Source of the DNA: Verrucomicrobium sp. BvORR106
Lineage (GTDB): Bacteria; Verrucomicrobiota; Verrucomicrobiia; Verrucomicrobiales; Verrucomicrobiaceae
Reading direction: 5' to 3'
Assembly: GCF_000739655.1 (NCBI RefSeq)
Contig: NZ_BATR01000162.1
Span: 124,001 to 188,000, forward strand
Length of the DNA stretch: 64,000 nucleotides
Under the pieces are notes generated by a model. That model was not told where the DNA came from. It worked only from the letters and a program-made list of their open reading frames with translations, and ran no database searches. Position 1 is the stretch's first letter; every line of letters begins with the position of its first letter. Both the position numbers and the translations under genes were made by a program. Positions 46,197 to 54,590 of the stretch are shown piece after piece.

Positions 46197-48104
46197 ATGA
46201 GCGCCGTCGTCCCTGCCCTGATCTCCGCCACCGATCTGTTCCTGTCCTACGGACAGCAGCACCTGCTGGAGGGCGTGACCTTGGCCGTGGCCCCCGGGGA
46301 GAAAGTCGGCCTCGTGGGCCGCAACGGCTGCGGCAAGACCAGCCTGCTCAAGATTCTGGCAGAGGCACACCAGGCCGACAGCGGCATCATCTCCCGCCGC
46401 CGCGGCCTGCGCGTGGGCTATCTGCCGCAGGAGTTCGTGCTCGATGGCACCAAGACCGTCCGGGAAAACATCGAGTCCGGCGTGGCCGATCTTATGGGCT
46501 GGCTCCGGCGCTATGAAGCTGGCGATGGCAGCGAGGCCGAGCTCGCAGAACTGCAGCATCTCATTGAGGCGGCCGATGGCTGGAATCTGGAGGCCCGCAT
46601 CAAGGCAGATGCCACCGCTTTGGACGTCCCTCCGCTGGATGCTCCCGTGGGCCCTCTCTCAGGTGGGGAGAAACGTCGCGTGGCCCTGTGCCGGGCCCTG
46701 GTCACCCAGCCGGACCTCCTGCTCCTGGATGAACCCACCAACCACCTGGATGCCGAGTCCATCCGCTGGCTGGAGGAGTACCTGCGCACCTTTGCCGGAG
46801 CAGTCATCTTCGTCACGCACGACCGATATTTCCTCGATGTCATCGCCACCCGCATCATCGAGATCTTTGACGGCAAGGCCTATTCGCATCCGGGAAACTA
46901 CACCGCCTATCTGGAGTCCAAGGCCCTGCGGCAGGAGATCTCCGAGCAAACCGAGCGCCGTCGCCAGCGCTTCCTCAAGGTGGAGCTGGCCTGGGTACGC
47001 TCCGGGGTCAAAGCCCGCGGCACCAAGTCCCGCCACCGCATGGATCAGTACTACTCCATCGCCGGTCAGGATGCCCCGGTGGAAGAGCGCGAGATGGATG
47101 TGCTCATCCCCCCTGCCCCAGAGATGGGAAATATCGGCGTGGACCTGCTCAATGCTTCCGCCCGCGTGGGCGAGGGCGACGAAGCCCGCTGGCTCTTCCG
47201 CCAGCTCACCATGTCCCTGAAGCCCGGCCAGTGCACCGGCGTGGTGGGTCGCAACGGCGTGGGCAAGACTACCCTGCTGCGTCTCTGCCTGGGCGAACGC
47301 CAGCCGGACGAGGGTGCCGTCACCATCGGCAAAAAAGTCAGCTTCAACTACATCGACCAGAACCGCATGCAGCTCGACGGCAGCAAGACGGTGATCGAGG
47401 AAATTGCGGACATGGATGAGACCGTCTCCTTCGGCGGGCAGAAGATGGGCGTGCGCACCTATCTGCGCCGTTTCCTCTTCAACGATGACCGGCTGCGGGA
47501 GCGCATCGACCTCATGTCCGGAGGCGAGCGAGCCCGGCTCATGCTGGCCAAGGTGCTGAAGCGCGGCGGCAACATCGTCGTGCTGGATGAGCCCACCAAC
47601 GACCTTGACCTGCCCAGCCTGCGCATGCTGGAAGAGGCCCTCGTGGACTTCGAAGGCAGCGTACTTGTGGTGAGCCACGACCGCTATTTCCTCGACCGCG
47701 TGTGCGACCAGATCGTCGCCTTTGAAAACGGAGGTGTGTTTGTCCAGCCCGGGAACTACTCCTACTACCTGGAAAAGAAAAAGGAACGCGACCTGCTCGC
47801 CCGCCCCTCCTGGGCAGAGCCGGGCAAGGCCGCCCGCAAGCCCACTGCGCCCGCTGCCGCCAAGCCTCGCAAGCTCACTTTCAAGGAGCAGAAGGAGCTG
47901 GAAGGTATGGAAGCCCTCATCCTCGAAGCAGAAGGCAAGGTCGAGGAACTGGACCGCACGCTCAACGATCCCGAGTTCTTCGTCACCCGCTCGCTTGAGG
48001 CCCCTGCCAAAATCGAGGCCCTGGAAAAGGCCCGTGCAGAGGTCGCCCGCCTCTACGCGCGCTGGGAAGAGCTGGAGCAAATCCAACAAGCCGCCCTGGC
48101 TTGA
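46197..48104 (+). CDS. uup: ABC-F family ATPase (Uup-like)
   Basis: 635 aa from ATG 46197. Two ABC modules with Walker A GRNGCGKTS and GRNGVGKTT, signatures LSGGEKRR and MSGGERAR, Walker B LLLLDEPTNHLD and IVVLDEPTNDLD, and HDRYFLD switch loops in both. No membrane segments. A Lys/Ala/Pro linker (about 545-560) and a C-terminal Glu-rich coiled coil (about 565-633) are as in Uup, which binds the ribosome and branched DNA. ABC-F proteins act on translating ribosomes. A MITE-like element follows the stop after 33 bases. Confidence 0.93.
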   Translation: MSAVVPALISATDLFLSYGQQHLLEGVTLAVAPGEKVGLVGRNGCGKTSLLKILAEAHQADSGIISRRRGLRVGYLPQEFVLDGTKTVRENIESGVADLMGWLRRYEAGDGSEAELAELQHLIEAADGWNLEARIKADATALDVPPLDAPVGPLSGGEKRRVALCRALVTQPDLLLLDEPTNHLDAESIRWLEEYLRTFAGAVIFVTHDRYFLDVIATRIIEIFDGKAYSHPGNYTAYLESKALRQEISEQTERRRQRFLKVELAWVRSGVKARGTKSRHRMDQYYSIAGQDAPVEEREMDVLIPPAPEMGNIGVDLLNASARVGEGDEARWLFRQLTMSLKPGQCTGVVGRNGVGKTTLLRLCLGERQPDEGAVTIGKKVSFNYIDQNRMQLDGSKTVIEEIADMDETVSFGGQKMGVRTYLRRFLFNDDRLRERIDLMSGGERARLMLAKVLKRGGNIVVLDEPTNDLDLPSLRMLEEALVDFEGSVLVVSHDRYFLDRVCDQIVAFENGGVFVQPGNYSYYLEKKKERDLLARPSWAEPGKAARKPTAPAAAKPRKLTFKEQKELEGMEALILEAEGKVEELDRTLNDPEFFVTRSLEAPAKIEALEKARAEVARLYARWEELEQIQQAALA

Positions 48105-48137
48105 TGGTCTGAGCGAGCCTCGCACGCCAAAGGGTCC

Positions 48138-48299
48138 AAGGAGCGGCGGTTTGTGCTTGCACAACCGCCGACGGTTACCGGAGGAAGGGTGCTTAAAAGA
48201 AAGAAGCCAGCGGCTAGACCACCTAAGGTGGTAGTTGTTTTGGCAATCGAGCGCTCCGCTTTCCCTCGGCGGTTGTGCAAGCACAAACCGCCGCTCCTT
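48138..48299. mobile_element. 162-bp MITE-like element with perfect 34-bp terminal inverted repeats
   Basis: 48138-48171 is the exact reverse complement of 48266-48299 over 34 bases. Each end is itself an almost perfect hairpin (GGCGGTT...AACCGCC around GTGC-TT-GCAC). The middle carries another palindrome, ACCACCT-A-AGGTGGT. It has no open reading frame of its own. It lies in the 358-base gap between the ABC-F and metal-efflux genes. No target duplication was found at the ends by eye. Confidence 0.8.
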
Positions 48300-48462
48300 G
48301 TGGGCGTCCGACCTGATTTGCGGATGGCCCATCTGCGCGACTTATCGCCTTTCCGCACCATGCGTTGAACAAAAACCCCGCGGTCGCCGTCTCATTGTCA
48401 CCGCAAGCACGGGTTGAAGCGAAGGATTGACATTCTGCGCTCCCTGTCGCTAACTACCCAAC

Positions 48463-48903
48463 GTGAACAAGTCCCTCACCAACTTCTGCATCCTCTTCCT
48501 CGCGTTCATCGCGGTGGGCTGGGCGCAGGTGGCGGGGCTCAATCACCACTATGTGTGCGTCTGCACCGGGGAGCCGGTGGAGGTGGCCTCTGACCACTGC
48601 CACGCCCACGGGAGCCAGGTGGTCACCGATGATGAAGGCAGTCACGACGAACACGCCGATCATCACGACTCCCAGCCGCACACTCCACTTAAGAAGGAGT
48701 TCAAGGCGCAGAACAAGACCACTGCCACGGTCACGATTCAGGCCCCCGCTCCCGTGATGCTTTTTGACCTGCCCGACTTTGCTCGGCCGGTCATTCCCCT
48801 TTTGATCGCAGAAGATCAAATCGACTCTCGTCCGCCACATCATCTGGCGGAGAGTCCCCCGGCGGCACTCCAGGTCAAGGAGTGCGTCGTCCTGCTCGTT
48901 TGA
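48463..48903 (+). CDS. Small His-rich exported protein at the head of the metal-efflux operon
   Basis: 146 aa from GTG 48463. A hydrophobic N-terminus (FCILFLAFIAVGWAQVAG) is followed by NHHYVCVCTG, HCHAHGSQ and HDEHADHHDSQPH, giving many His and Cys residues for metal binding, then a Lys/Thr stretch and a hydrophobic tail ending VKECVVLLV. This form heads many CzcCBA-type operons as a periplasmic metal sensor or chaperone. No sequence family named. Confidence 0.7.
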   Translation: MNKSLTNFCILFLAFIAVGWAQVAGLNHHYVCVCTGEPVEVASDHCHAHGSQVVTDDEGSHDEHADHHDSQPHTPLKKEFKAQNKTTATVTIQAPAPVMLFDLPDFARPVIPLLIAEDQIDSRPPHHLAESPPAALQVKECVVLLV

Positions 48904-48995
48904 GCCGGAACGTGGTGGTGATCATACCACCTTCTACGCAATAAAACCTGCGCGGCTTCGTCATGCTCGCGCATCACCTGCTTCATGCACCCGTC

Positions 48996-50252
48996 ATGCA
49001 ACCACGTTCCTACTTTACTCCCCTGCTTTTTTCCAGCCTCCTGCTGTGCCCCGCCCTGCTAAAAGGCGACGTCCAGATCTCAATCAACGGCGCGCCTTCC
49101 TACGCGCTGAAACACAATCCTGACATCGCTGCTGCCCGCATGCGCATCGTGGAGGCGCAGGGCCGCCTCCATCAGGCCGGCCGCCTCTCCAACCCCGAGC
49201 TGGAGTTCGACTACAACAAGAACCCGCGGAGCTCCGAGCGAAATGTCGGCGTCGCCTTCAACCAGAAGTTCCCCCTCACCGCCCGGCTCAGCCAGGAGAA
49301 GACCCTGAGCCGCCAGCAACTGGCGCAGGCCGAGGCGGAAGTCCGCAATGAAGAGCGCAAGCTCATCGCTGAGGTCAATGCCGCAGCGATCAAACTCCTC
49401 GTGGCCGACCAAAAGCTGGCCCTCGTGGAAGCCCAGTTGAAGGTCTCCAACTCGCTCGTCGAGGTGGTCGAGAAACGCACGCAAGCGGGAGAAATTGCCG
49501 CCAGCGATGCCGCCCAACTGGCGATCGACAACCAAAATCGTCTGCTGGAACTACAGCAGATCACGGGACAAAAAGCAGTCCTCGTGAATGAGCTCAAGCC
49601 CTTGCTGGGCGTGAGTGCGACGAATGGCCTGACGCTCACCGGATCGCTCCCGGCCATCAGCAATGGGGCCAAAGGCATCGACGTGCAGGGTCGTCCCGAT
49701 CTGGACTCCTCCCGAATCGCTCAATCCGTCGCCCAGAGTGAGGTGGATCTCGCCAAGTCATCCCGCTGGGAAGACATCGGCGTGGGTCTGACCGTCGAGC
49801 ATGAGAAGAGCGAGGACGCTCCTGAAGGCATCCGAGGCGACAGCTTCGTCGGCTTCCGCATCAGCCTTCCCCTCCCTCTCTGGAACAAGCAGAAAGGTTT
49901 GATCGCCGAGAAAGAGGCTGCCCAACAGCGGGCCATCCTCGAGACCAAGGCGCTCGAGTCCCGCATCCAGAGCGAGGCCGCCGCCGCCCGAGCCGAGATG
50001 GCCGCCAGCGCCCGTCTCTACAACGAGACCAAGACGAAGCTTCTGCCCACCATTGAGAAGCACTCGCAGACCATTGAAAAGGCCTACGGTGTGGGTGAAG
50101 CGGACGCCATGGCGCTGCTGCGATCCAGAGAACAGAAGCTGCATGCCGAAACGGCCGCCCTGGACGCTCTCCAGAGCTACCATCTGGCCCGGGCACGGCA
50201 TGAAGCCGCCACCGCGACCCAGCCCGCCCTTCGCAACCACAGCGGAAAATAG
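48996..50252 (+). CDS. czcC: Outer-membrane efflux protein of an RND system (CzcC/TolC type)
   Basis: 418 aa from ATG 48996 (48963 is an alternative). A signal peptide to about residue 24 is followed by the TolC-like helical hairpin repeats: ALKHNPDIAAARMRIVEAQG with GRLSNPELEFDYN, the first repeat, and the second half with a SLPLPLWNKQKGLIAEKEA block. It would form the outer-membrane channel. Followed by the adaptor gene after 33 bases. Confidence 0.9.
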   Translation: MQPRSYFTPLLFSSLLLCPALLKGDVQISINGAPSYALKHNPDIAAARMRIVEAQGRLHQAGRLSNPELEFDYNKNPRSSERNVGVAFNQKFPLTARLSQEKTLSRQQLAQAEAEVRNEERKLIAEVNAAAIKLLVADQKLALVEAQLKVSNSLVEVVEKRTQAGEIAASDAAQLAIDNQNRLLELQQITGQKAVLVNELKPLLGVSATNGLTLTGSLPAISNGAKGIDVQGRPDLDSSRIAQSVAQSEVDLAKSSRWEDIGVGLTVEHEKSEDAPEGIRGDSFVGFRISLPLPLWNKQKGLIAEKEAAQQRAILETKALESRIQSEAAAARAEMAASARLYNETKTKLLPTIEKHSQTIEKAYGVGEADAMALLRSREQKLHAETAALDALQSYHLARARHEAATATQPALRNHSGK

Positions 50253-50285
50253 TTTCCTCGTTCCCCATTTTATTCTTTTCGTTAC

Positions 50286-51455
50286 ATGACCCCATTTACT
50301 TCTACCGCCGCCTGGCGCGGCATGAGGCTGCTTATGCTAGCAGCCTGCCTGGTGATCCTGCACGCCCTCCCTGCCCACGCCGCCGAAGGAGGCGGCAATC
50401 GCAAGGACAGCACCATCATTCTGGACGAGACCCGGATCAAAAACCTGGGCCTGGAACTCGCGGAGACCGAGGAAACAGAATTCGAAGAAGCCATCTTTGC
50501 CCTCGGTGGCATCGAGGTGCTGCCGGGCAAGAAAGCCGTGGTGAGCAGCCGCATCGCCGGTCGCGCCTTCTCTGTGCTGGCCCTGCCAGACCAGGAGGTG
50601 GACGAGGGTGAGGAGCTGATGTGGGTGGAGAGCCGCCAACCCGGCGATCCCCCGCCCACCGTGCGTCTGGAGGCCCCCATCGCTGGCACCATTGCCAAGG
50701 TGGACATCGCCCAAGGCCAGCCCATCAGCCCGGACCAGTCACTCATCGAGATCGTGGACCTCTCCCAGGTGGAGGCGGCCGCCCGCGTGCCCGAACATCT
50801 GGCTGGCAAGCTGGCCAAGGAACAGCACGCCCGCATCCGCATCTCTGCCTACCCGGACAAGGTGTTCGAGGCCCAGCTCAACCACCTCGGGGCTTATGCA
50901 GATGAAACCGCCGGCACTGTGGAGGCCGCATTCCATGTGCCCAATCCGGACAAGTTGCTGCGCCCCGGCATGCGTGCGGAGTTCAGCATCGTCACCAGCA
51001 AGCGTGACGCCGTTCTCTCCATTCCCCGCTCTGCCCTTCAGGGTGATGCCGGGGAGAAGTATGTCTTCATCGCGGACTACGAGCTGAAAAATGCCTTCGT
51101 GAAAACGCCGGTGCAGATCGGTGCCCAGAACGATGAGCGTGTGGAGATCCTCAGCGGCCTGCTGCCAGGTGACCAGGTGGTGACCAAGGGAGCCTATGCC
51201 TTGAGCTTCGCTGGAGCTGGCAGCGTTTCACTGCGTGAAGCGCTCGATGCTGCCCACGGCCATCCTCACAATGAGGACGGCACGGAGATGACCAAGGAGC
51301 AGATCGCGGCAGGCGGCAAAGGCGGCCACGACCATGATCATGACGGTGGTGGTGAAGGCGGGTGGACCCGCCTGACCACCTTCTTCGCCGGCACCAGTGC
51401 GCTGCTGTTTTGCATGCTCGCGCTGAGTTTCATCTTCCGCAAACGCAGCCTGTAA
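50286..51455 (+). CDS. czcB: RND periplasmic adaptor (CzcB/CusB type) with His-rich region and C-terminal membrane helix
   Basis: 389 aa. Signal peptide to about residue 33; then an adaptor core with KKAVVSSRIAGRAFSVLALP, a LEAPIAGTIAKVDIAQGQPI lipoyl-type half and the GLLPGDQVVTKGAYAL strand. Near the C-terminus HDHDHDGGG follows a KGGH run, and then a hydrophobic stretch FFAGTSALLFCMLALSFIF with a basic end. That helix is not part of ordinary adaptors, which are anchored at the N-terminus. Metal binding by the His-Asp run is inferred. Confidence 0.9.
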   Translation: MTPFTSTAAWRGMRLLMLAACLVILHALPAHAAEGGGNRKDSTIILDETRIKNLGLELAETEETEFEEAIFALGGIEVLPGKKAVVSSRIAGRAFSVLALPDQEVDEGEELMWVESRQPGDPPPTVRLEAPIAGTIAKVDIAQGQPISPDQSLIEIVDLSQVEAAARVPEHLAGKLAKEQHARIRISAYPDKVFEAQLNHLGAYADETAGTVEAAFHVPNPDKLLRPGMRAEFSIVTSKRDAVLSIPRSALQGDAGEKYVFIADYELKNAFVKTPVQIGAQNDERVEILSGLLPGDQVVTKGAYALSFAGAGSVSLREALDAAHGHPHNEDGTEMTKEQIAAGGKGGHDHDHDGGGEGGWTRLTTFFAGTSALLFCMLALSFIFRKRSL

Positions 51456-51464
51456 GCCCCGGTC

Positions 51465-54400
51465 ATGCTGAATCATCTCATTCGATTCTCGCTGCGACAC
51501 CGCCCCCTCATTCTGGCGGCGGCGTTGTTGATCCTGGTGTCTGGATGGCAGGTCTTGAAGAACCTGCCGGTGGAAGTGCTGCCAGACATGACCAAACCGA
51601 CCGTGACCATCCTCACGGAATCTCCGGGCCTCGCACCTGAGGAGGTGGAAACCCTCGTCACCCAGCCCATTGAATCCGCCCTCCAAGGTGTGGGTGGGTT
51701 GGATCGCTTGCGCTCCAGCTCAGACGTCAGCCTCTCGCTGGTCTTTGCGGAGTTTAAGTGGGGCACGGATATCTACCGCGCACGTCAACTCGTGCAGGAG
51801 CGCATGCAGGCCGTGCTCAATACCCTGCCCGAAGGCACCCAGCCCGGTATGACACCCGTGTCCTCCCTCATGGGCGAGATCCTGCTGGTGGGCATCCGCA
51901 GCAAGGACAACAAGACCGCCCCCATGGACCTGCGTACCCTTGCTGACTGGACGGTCCGCAGAAGGTTGCAGAGCATCAATGGCGTGGCGGAAGTACTGGC
52001 CATCGGCGGAGGCGTGAAGCAGGCCCAAATCCTGCCGGATCCGCAAAAGCTGGCCGCGTACGGCATCACGTTCGAGGAGTTACAACAGGCGGCCACCCGT
52101 GCTGCGGACAACTCCACGAGCGGCTACCTGACGACCGACACCCGGGAGATCATGGTGCGCAATCTGGGCATGACCACCGATCTCGACGAGCTCGGGCGCA
52201 CCGTGGTCAAGCAGCTCGACCATCGCCCCGTGCTCATCCGGGATGTAGCCACGCTCCAATATGGCCCCCAACTCATGCGCGGAGACGCCAGCGTAGATGG
52301 ACACATGGGCGTGATCCTGAGCGTGGACAAGGCCCCCGGCTTTGACACACTCAAACTGAGCGAGAGCATCGAGAAGGCCTTGAAGGACCTGAAGCCCTCG
52401 CTGCCGGAGGATGTGGAGCTGGAGGTTCTCTTCCGCCAGGGGGACTTCATTAAAAGCGCCATCGACAACCTCGCAGACGCCATTGGCGAAGGAGCGGTCA
52501 TGGTGGCGGTGGTCTTGCTGCTCTTCCTGCTGAGCGTCCGTACCACCCTCATCACGCTCATGGCCATGCCGCTCTCGTTCGGCATCACGCTGCTGGTGTT
52601 TCAGTGGCAGGGGGTCAGCGTGAACTCCATGACCCTCGGCGGTCTGGCCGTGGCCATCGGCATGGTGGTGGATGACGCCATCGTGGATGTGGAGAACGTC
52701 TGGCGTCGCCTCCAGGAAAACGCCTCCTCATCCACACCCAAGCCCAAGCTGGAGGTCATCGCCACGGCATCGGGTGAGGTGCGAAACTCCATCCTCTACG
52801 CCACTGTGCTCATCGTGCTGGTCTTCCTGCCCCTCATGGGACTGGAAGGGCTGGAGGGACGCCTCTTCACCCCCATCGCGATCGCGACTATCACCAGCAT
52901 GATCGCGTCCTTCGTGGTCTCGCTGACCGTCATCCCGGTGCTCTGCTCTCTGGTGCTCAATCCCAAGCCAGTCAAGGAAGCCCACGGCTCCCACGATGGA
53001 TGGCTGGTGCGCCAGCTCAAGGGTGGCGTGAAGCACACCCTGCTGAAGGTGGCCCTGGGCAATCCGCTCCTGGTTCTAGGTGTCACTGCCGTGCTCCTCA
53101 TGGGCTCCTTCATGCTCTACCCCAGCATGGGCAAGGAGTTCCTGCCCACCTTCAATGAAGGCAGCGCCACCATCTCCCTGGCCGGGCCTCCCGGTACCGG
53201 CCTTCGCCAGTCCAACGAGATTGGTGAAGTAGGCGTGCGCATTCTTAAAAGCATACCCGAGGTGAAAAGCGTGGGCCGCCGCGCTGGACGCGCTGAGCGC
53301 GACGACCACGTCGTGCCGGTTTCGGTCAACGAGTTCGATGTCGAGTTCAACAAAGACGGGCGTCATCGCAACGAAGTCTTCAAGGAAATCCGCGAGAAAC
53401 TAGGCACCATTCCCGGCACCTTTGTGAACGTGGGGCAACCCATCGGCCACCGCCTTTCCCACATGTTGAGCGGGGTCAGCGCCAAGATCGCAGTCAAAAT
53501 CTATGGATCGGATCTGCAGAAGCTGCGCGATTTCGGCAAACAAGTAGAGGCCATCGCCCGTGGGATACCCGGGCTCACTGACGTGAACCTGGAGGCCCAG
53601 GTGCCTATCCCCCAGCTCAAGATCGAGGTGAACCGTGAACGGGCTCACGCCTACGGCATGCAACCGGGGGAACTCAACGCCCAGCTCTCTGCGCTGGTGG
53701 GGGGTACCACCGTGACCGAGTTGCGGGAAGGCCAGCGCACGATGGACCTCGTGCTGAGGCTGCCGGAATCGTGGCGGGATTCCCCGGAAAAGATCCGGGA
53801 CTTGCCCATCGAGACCAGCAGCGGACGCCGCATCCCGCTGCACCTCGTCGCGGATGTGAAGGACTCGAAAGGGCCCAACGTCATCAACCGCGAGAACACC
53901 CAACGCCGCATCGTCATAGGAGCCAACACCAGCGAGCGCGACCTGGAGTCCATCGTGACCCGGTTGCAGAAAGAGGTGCGGGAGAAGCTGCAACTACCCA
54001 CGGGTTACTTCGTGAGCTTTGAAGGGGAGTTCCAGGCCCAGCAAGAAGCCGCCCAGCGCATCACACTGCTGTTCACCCTCGTTCTCGCGGTGGTGAGCGT
54101 CCTGCTCTATGGCTACTTCAAGAGCGTCTCCCTGGCTCTCCAGGTGCTGGTGAACATTCCCCTCGCCCTCATGGGCGGTCTGGTGCTCACGTGGCAGGTG
54201 GTGAACAACATCTCCATCGCCACGCTGGTGGGCTTCATCGCCGTTGGCGGTGTCGCCGCCCGCAACGGCATCATGATGATCTCCCACTACCTCCACCTCA
54301 TGAAACATGAGGGTGAGGGTTTCACCCGGGAAATGATCACCCGCGGTACACTGGAGCGGCTCGTTCCCGTGCTCATGACCGCCCTCAGCGCTGGCATCGC

Positions 54401-54590
54401 CCTTATCCCCCTGGTACTGGCTGCTGGTGAGCCGGGGAAAGAAATCCTCCACCCTGTGGCCGTGGTCATCGTGGGCGGTCTGGTCAGCTCCACGCTGCTC
54501 GACCTGCTCGTCACGCCAGCCGCCTTCTCCCTCTTTGGCCGCAAGGCTGCGGAGAAAGCGATCCGGCTGGAAGCACCCGCTGCCCATTGA
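51465..54590 (+). CDS. czcA: Efflux RND transporter permease, heavy-metal (CzcA/CusA) type
   Basis: 1041 aa, starts 9 bases after the adaptor. About twelve helices with two large periplasmic loops. Opening: RHRPLILAAALLILVSGWQV then DMTKPTVTILTESPGL, GLAPEEVETLVTQPIE typical of HME-RND. The proton-relay helix IV has GMVVDDAIVDVENVWRRL, in which CusA/CzcA proteins have D-G-A-V-x-x-V-E-N, so the metal type is not certain. Late GGVAARNGIMMISHY is the usual helix X region. Exports cations or organics from the periplasm or cytosol using protons. Confidence 0.93.
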   Translation: MLNHLIRFSLRHRPLILAAALLILVSGWQVLKNLPVEVLPDMTKPTVTILTESPGLAPEEVETLVTQPIESALQGVGGLDRLRSSSDVSLSLVFAEFKWGTDIYRARQLVQERMQAVLNTLPEGTQPGMTPVSSLMGEILLVGIRSKDNKTAPMDLRTLADWTVRRRLQSINGVAEVLAIGGGVKQAQILPDPQKLAAYGITFEELQQAATRAADNSTSGYLTTDTREIMVRNLGMTTDLDELGRTVVKQLDHRPVLIRDVATLQYGPQLMRGDASVDGHMGVILSVDKAPGFDTLKLSESIEKALKDLKPSLPEDVELEVLFRQGDFIKSAIDNLADAIGEGAVMVAVVLLLFLLSVRTTLITLMAMPLSFGITLLVFQWQGVSVNSMTLGGLAVAIGMVVDDAIVDVENVWRRLQENASSSTPKPKLEVIATASGEVRNSILYATVLIVLVFLPLMGLEGLEGRLFTPIAIATITSMIASFVVSLTVIPVLCSLVLNPKPVKEAHGSHDGWLVRQLKGGVKHTLLKVALGNPLLVLGVTAVLLMGSFMLYPSMGKEFLPTFNEGSATISLAGPPGTGLRQSNEIGEVGVRILKSIPEVKSVGRRAGRAERDDHVVPVSVNEFDVEFNKDGRHRNEVFKEIREKLGTIPGTFVNVGQPIGHRLSHMLSGVSAKIAVKIYGSDLQKLRDFGKQVEAIARGIPGLTDVNLEAQVPIPQLKIEVNRERAHAYGMQPGELNAQLSALVGGTTVTELREGQRTMDLVLRLPESWRDSPEKIRDLPIETSSGRRIPLHLVADVKDSKGPNVINRENTQRRIVIGANTSERDLESIVTRLQKEVREKLQLPTGYFVSFEGEFQAQQEAAQRITLLFTLVLAVVSVLLYGYFKSVSLALQVLVNIPLALMGGLVLTWQVVNNISIATLVGFIAVGGVAARNGIMMISHYLHLMKHEGEGFTREMITRGTLERLVPVLMTALSAGIALIPLVLAAGEPGKEILHPVAVVIVGGLVSSTLLDLLVTPAAFSLFGRKAAEKAIRLEAPAAH

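Follow-up and report, generated by a model that had tools for sequence, protein, structure and literature searches.

A probable REPIN-like element with a CAAGGAG foot in Verrucomicrobium, whose arms flank a RAYT-type gene in a sister species

Few repeats are as common in bacterial genomes as REPs and REPINs, and the feet reported for REPs are GTAG or GTGG, CGTC (not associated with a transposase) and CnGA (PMC2817692, PMC3733652, PMC6006769). How a RAYT—a REP-associated HUH/Y1 transposase—chooses its targets is known only for GTAG-tagged cases. In Verrucomicrobia such repeats already have a precedent in the GTAG REPs of Opitutus terrae (PMC3733652). The REPINs of Pseudomonas fluorescens SBW25 are inverted pairs of REP hairpins with conserved ends and a variable centre (Bertels & Rainey 2011, PMC3116915), and the element described here, from Verrucomicrobium sp. 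BvORR106, is built in the same way. We are confident that a RAYT moves this REPIN-like, non-autonomous element, whose foot is CAAGGAG in place of GTAG/GTGG.

The window—the whole 64-kb stretch of DNA under analysis—belongs to an 8.69-Mb assembly of 209 contigs (G000). The element sits in a gap of 358 bp, with an ABC-F type ATPase gene on one side and a small ORF on the other; all flanking genes lie on the + strand. In window coordinates, the features are as follows.

46200..48104, + strand: upstream neighbour, ABC-F type ATPase gene (Pfam ABC_tran in two stretches, ABC_tran_Xtn, ABC_tran_CTD; start codon not fixed, open frame from 46137)
48137..48300, no strand: whole REPIN-like unit, 164 bp, with the family boundary CAAGGAG ... 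CTCCTTG taken from a 29-copy alignment
48137..48171, + strand: left arm (REP-like unit), CAAGGAG foot plus hairpin, 35 bp
48137..48143, + strand: CAAGGAG tag, invariant before unrelated hairpins around related RAYT genes
48144..48170, + strand: left hairpin, CGGCGGTTTGTGC-TT-GCACAACCGCCG, 27 nt, one bulged base
48172..48265, no strand: variable centre, 94 bp, 65% mean pairwise identity against 97-99% in the arms
48178-48184: sub-terminal CCGGAGG in the centre
48218-48232: weak 6-bp hairpin in the centre
48254-48258: sub-terminal CTCCG in the centre
48266..48300, - strand: right arm, perfect inverted copy of the left arm, 35 bp
48267..48293: right hairpin, 27 nt, stem and loop as in the left, one bulged base
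48463..54590, + strand: downstream neighbours overall, region of the RND metal-efflux operon
48463-48903, + strand: small ORF, no Pfam match
48963-50252, + strand: OEP gene (Pfam)
50286-51455, + strand: CusB/HlyD-type fusion protein gene (Pfam)
51465-54590, + strand: ACR_tran pump gene (Pfam)

A preliminary description of this DNA had placed at 48138-48299 a gene-free, 162-bp element with perfect 34-bp inverted ends, themselves hairpins, in the gap before the metal-efflux operon. The ends are indeed inverted and perfect, and each is a 27-nt hairpin with a single bulge; no gene lies inside, and the ABC-F gene borders the gap on one side and the RND efflux genes on the other. The limits, however, fell one base short at each end, the arms being 35 bp and the unit 164 bp: in the 29-copy alignment conservation passes from ~90-100% inside to random beyond CCAAGGAG and CTCCTTG. 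The central palindrome of that account corresponds to the 6-bp hairpin, but this is weak and only partly conserved among copies. Read from the sequence, the arms are complementary without interruption over 35 bp each, and a repeat finder extends the pairing imperfectly to 47 nt at 91%. The 162-base stretch folds at -63.5 kcal/mol, compared with -27.5 +/- 3.3 for 200 dinucleotide shuffles (z -10.9). The GGAG of the tag occupies the position of the GTAG/GTGG guide tetranucleotide in known REPs. No T-tract terminator was found in the arms, a terminator-like score being returned only for the weak central hairpin. Rfam offered only plant and animal microRNAs, below threshold (29.8 bits against a gathering score of 70), and this identity was rejected, the matches being a by-product of the long complementarity; a plasmid collection searched with the element gave no match.

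Searched against its own genome, the element returned 107 match pieces, and a 28-nt arm pattern with at most 3 mismatches occurs 95 times genome-wide (71 perfect), compared with 0 for the reversed-pattern control; the element is thus not single copy. Both occurrences in the window are the element's own arms. The 95 arms resolve into 35 inverted doublets and 25 singlets, and in every doublet (35 of 35) the arms face the same way, with starts 121-128 bp apart, giving the over-representation of inverted units at fixed spacing that characterizes REPINs. Also as in REPINs, the ends are more conserved than the centre: over 29 full copies, pairwise identity averages 98.8% in one arm and 96.6% in the other, against 65% in the centre and 32-35% beyond the element, placing the constraint on the arms. 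Perfect arms make up 18 of 25 in singlets and 53 of 70 in doublets, and this good preservation of both forms suggests a recent expansion or some constraint. The direct duplications at insertion sites that the preliminary description had suggested looking for are absent, the longest word shared by the two flanks averaging 3.00, at chance level (2.97 in shuffled pairings).

Twelve of the 29 copies (L002-L005, L008-L012, L016, L018, L022) are extended on one side by a common ~60 bp (GTCAGG...GGATC), as though adjoining DNA had been picked up by a master copy, and because of them the moved unit is not always 164 bp. One singlet, on C125, carries the foot on both sides of a single hairpin, a "double foot" form that has been explained by central deletion of a dimer (PMC6006769). 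At L059 (G000:C200:125833 and 126917), two arms stand as direct repeats 1084 bp apart; both have the GTGGCGG variant and are followed by the same 40 bp, and a 224-aa ORF lies between them. This pair was considered as a possible transposon and set aside, the ORF being unlike a transposase on reading. All three arm-bearing genomes also contain, beside the short-loop type, hairpins of a second type whose loop is longer (TTCAA, CTTGA, TTTGAG and others). Two further interspersed repeats unrelated to the element, of ~120 bp (L222:2707-2828) and ~100 bp (L222:3034-3137), have many copies in the window genome and in a third species of the genus (G003).

Among four genomes of the genus, three contain the exact arm; it was absent from all 53 other relatives scanned. 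One arm-bearing congener assembly is a single contig of 8,220,857 bp, which we take to be V. spinosum. Orthologous sites were compared in Verrucomicrobium sp. BvORR034 (G001) and the third species, each locus being assigned by BLAST. At ten loci besides the window's, both flanks are conserved and the congeners lack the arm in all 19 comparisons, so that the family varies in presence and absence between related genomes, as REPINs do; at several of these loci the congener gap is only ~30 bp or less, and the inserted DNA often exceeds 164 bp. The ten polymorphic loci represent gains in the window lineage or losses elsewhere, and gains are the simpler account. Of the BvORR034 doublets, one recurs in the window genome at C158 but not in the third species, and another has no counterpart in either. 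The window's own site differs, in that both congeners carry there a single long-loop hairpin that likewise starts GTCCAA..GGAG; a second arm is missing, and the spacer that separates the hairpin from the gene has diverged. A hairpin was therefore present at this place before the species split, so the short-loop doublet either took the place of the older hairpin in the window lineage or joined it there, with re-insertion or recombination as possible routes.

A transposase gene with the same ends, as anticipated in the preliminary description, lies in BvORR034 (contig C35; locus L108), though no close relative of it is found in the window genome. In BvORR034, a 215-aa ORF stands between two identical arms, at 2391 (+) and 3254 (-), oriented inward as in the doublets, with a second doublet just downstream. 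Its product scores 34.7 bits against Y1_Tnp (cut-off 23) and 69.9 bits (E 2e-19) against NCBIfam NF047646, the REP-associated tyrosine transposase model, below the curated cut-off of 80. It carries H128-V-H130, and Y188 within YIRRNP, and thus the HUH motif, catalytic Tyr and Y---NP of a RAYT; across 15 aligned relatives both histidines, Y188 and P193 are invariant, N192 is nearly so, and PNHxH is kept (HVH in most). These motifs fit the published class-2 TnpA-REP signature of NHVH, WQ and Y---NP (PMC6006769), and a profile of the relatives finds its best PDB match in E. coli TnpA-REP (4ER8, E 1.1e-7). By its motifs and profile matches, the ORF is predicted to be an HUH/Y1 transposase of the RAYT (TnpA-REP) type.

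The best match to this RAYT in the window genome is only 44% identical, and no remnants of it were detected at the orthologous place in the window genome, where other sequence is found, or in the third species. With no close copy of the RAYT there, the element family in the window genome looks orphaned, now lacking its transposase unless the gene sits in an assembly gap; after a fairly recent expansion its members have probably been left behind as immobile remnants. The window genome's own RAYT-like genes on C43, C29 and C53 were rejected as cognates, being 40-44% identical and in other branches of the tree, and different hairpins or inverted repeats surround those on C43 and C53. The C43 gene (L179) lies between hairpins particular to it, AGGAG-CAGGGG.. 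and GGAG-GCGGGATT.., and the C53 gene (L181) has 67-nt flanking inverted repeats that are 87% complementary and TIRtron-like. A Y1 gene on C106 was likewise discarded, as it is not flanked by the element's hairpins.

Around RAYT relatives in other genera the stems differ, and CAAGGAG directly precedes each, for example CGGCGATTGGTAATCGCCG, CGGCACTAGCCTAGTGCCG and TGACGGCTTCTAGCCGTCA. The tag with a hairpin occurs at 13 of 58 RAYT-like loci, at least twice per locus, compared with 0 in 100 shuffles of each locus's flanks. Mapped on the RAYT tree, the tag label requires 5 changes against 11.9 when shuffled, and 10 of the 13 tagged loci fall in one 12-row branch (support 92/88). Three RAYT loci ~51% identical were scored untagged: L155, a member of that branch, where the script missed what the eye finds in the sequence, CAAGGAG followed by a GGGGCG..CGCCCC hairpin; L163, which lies at a contig end such that its tag status could not be judged; and L264, with GGAG-GCGGGGTT hairpins instead of CAAGGAG. 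Hairpins of GGAG/AGGAG type occur in the neighbouring branch, to which the window genome's C43 gene belongs. A CAAGGAG tag for such elements was not found in PMC2817692, PMC3733652 or PMC6006769. We lean, with caution, towards a reading in which a Verrucomicrobiales RAYT branch replaced the GTAG/GTGG guide by GGAG within an invariant CAAGGAG: the foot rather than the stem would be the conserved recognition element, the stems would have diversified freely between RAYTs, and the cleavage sites would have shifted accordingly.

The preliminary description had offered two origins, a MITE moved by a transposase elsewhere or a local fold with a local role. The former is essentially borne out, as the element is multicopy and insertion-polymorphic, and in a sister species a transposase gene lies between its ends. 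A classical MITE, however, derives from a DDE-type insertion sequence by internal deletion and has both terminal inverted repeats and target-site duplications, and although the copy number, inverted ends and non-coding centre would suit one, we find this origin barely credible: target-site duplications are lacking, each arm is a hairpin that stands alone 25 times, and the gene between the arms is of HUH/Y1 rather than DDE type. No DDE transposase with these ends was seen in the loci examined, in a non-exhaustive search. Closer to home, the window's own genome has an IS200-type Y1 transposase gene on contig C27 (L046, 46990-47433, 148 aa) between two outward-facing CAAGGAG hairpins, whose product might have moved the element. 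That it did so is very unlikely: its hairpins have a TTTGAG loop that a pattern scan finds nowhere else in the genome, relatives at up to 72% identity lack such hairpins, the gene is flanked by another repeat family, and the product scores as IS200 (62.9, cut-off 55) rather than as REP-associated (19.3, cut-off 80). The BvORR034 counterpart of this gene has one hairpin of the TTTGAG-loop type.

A DNA or RNA structure kept for a role at the site—protection of a 3' end, attenuation of transcription, or insulation of the ABC-F gene from the efflux operon—would accord with the persistence of one long-loop hairpin at the same place in both congeners despite a diverged spacer, and with hairpins well preserved in singlets too. 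As an explanation of the element it is nonetheless improbable, given that the arms recur 95 times genome-wide, that they have no T-tract terminator and that ten other copies have no counterpart in the congeners; a local role leaves the family unexplained and is not needed for its origin, though the related single hairpin in both congeners leaves room for a secondary role, added later.

The copy number, fixed architecture, constraint on the arms, lack of target-site duplications, polymorphism between species and placement of the arms around a RAYT in a sister species are all observed here; that the RAYT recognizes the element as single strands, cleaves it and copies it is what we infer from published TnpA-REP biochemistry. 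The two REP-like hairpin units, with their CAAGGAG feet, lie inverted around the 94-bp centre, and each arm would fold into its hairpin when the region becomes single-stranded. The RAYT would then bind the hairpin, with the 5' GGAG foot serving as guide, and nick beside it, and the unit may be moved or copied to another intergenic site without a target-site duplication.

The biology at the window site itself is ordinary: the space between two genes holds a small mobile repeat. The guide-sequence model nevertheless gains a natural experiment in a clade whose foot is different and invariant while its stems vary freely, and because only one of three congeneric species has the RAYT, the fate of a REPIN population can be followed after transposase loss. 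Like the SBW25 REPINs, the family has many intergenic copies, singlets alongside doublets and a RAYT link, and unlike them it has a CAAGGAG rather than a GTGG/GTAG foot and no RAYT in the window genome; at 164 bp the element is longer than the SBW25 unit (GI spacing 71 bp), and its singlets are not visibly decayed, in contrast to the decaying singlets reported for Pseudomonas (PMC3116915). The BvORR034 RAYT resembles class-2 TnpA-REP in its NHVH, Y---NP and WQ motifs, its hairpins on both sides and its low copy number, and departs from it in falling below the NCBIfam cut-off and in flanking hairpins with GGAG, not GT[AG]G (PMC6006769). TIRtrons (TIRYT) offer a further likeness, as some TIR families at RAYT-like genes are self-complementary and dimer-forming; their shared TIR motif is GGGGWSAS, and no CAAGGAG was found in that report (PMC3733652). 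The O. terrae repeats are reported as GTAG/GTGG tagged, unlike those described here (PMC3733652). Because its foot is GGAG—within a CAAGGAG found also at the 13 RAYT loci—and not GT[AG]G, the element falls outside the strict definition of a REP; it is a known kind of element, of the REPIN/RAYT type, with CAAGGAG as a variant foot.
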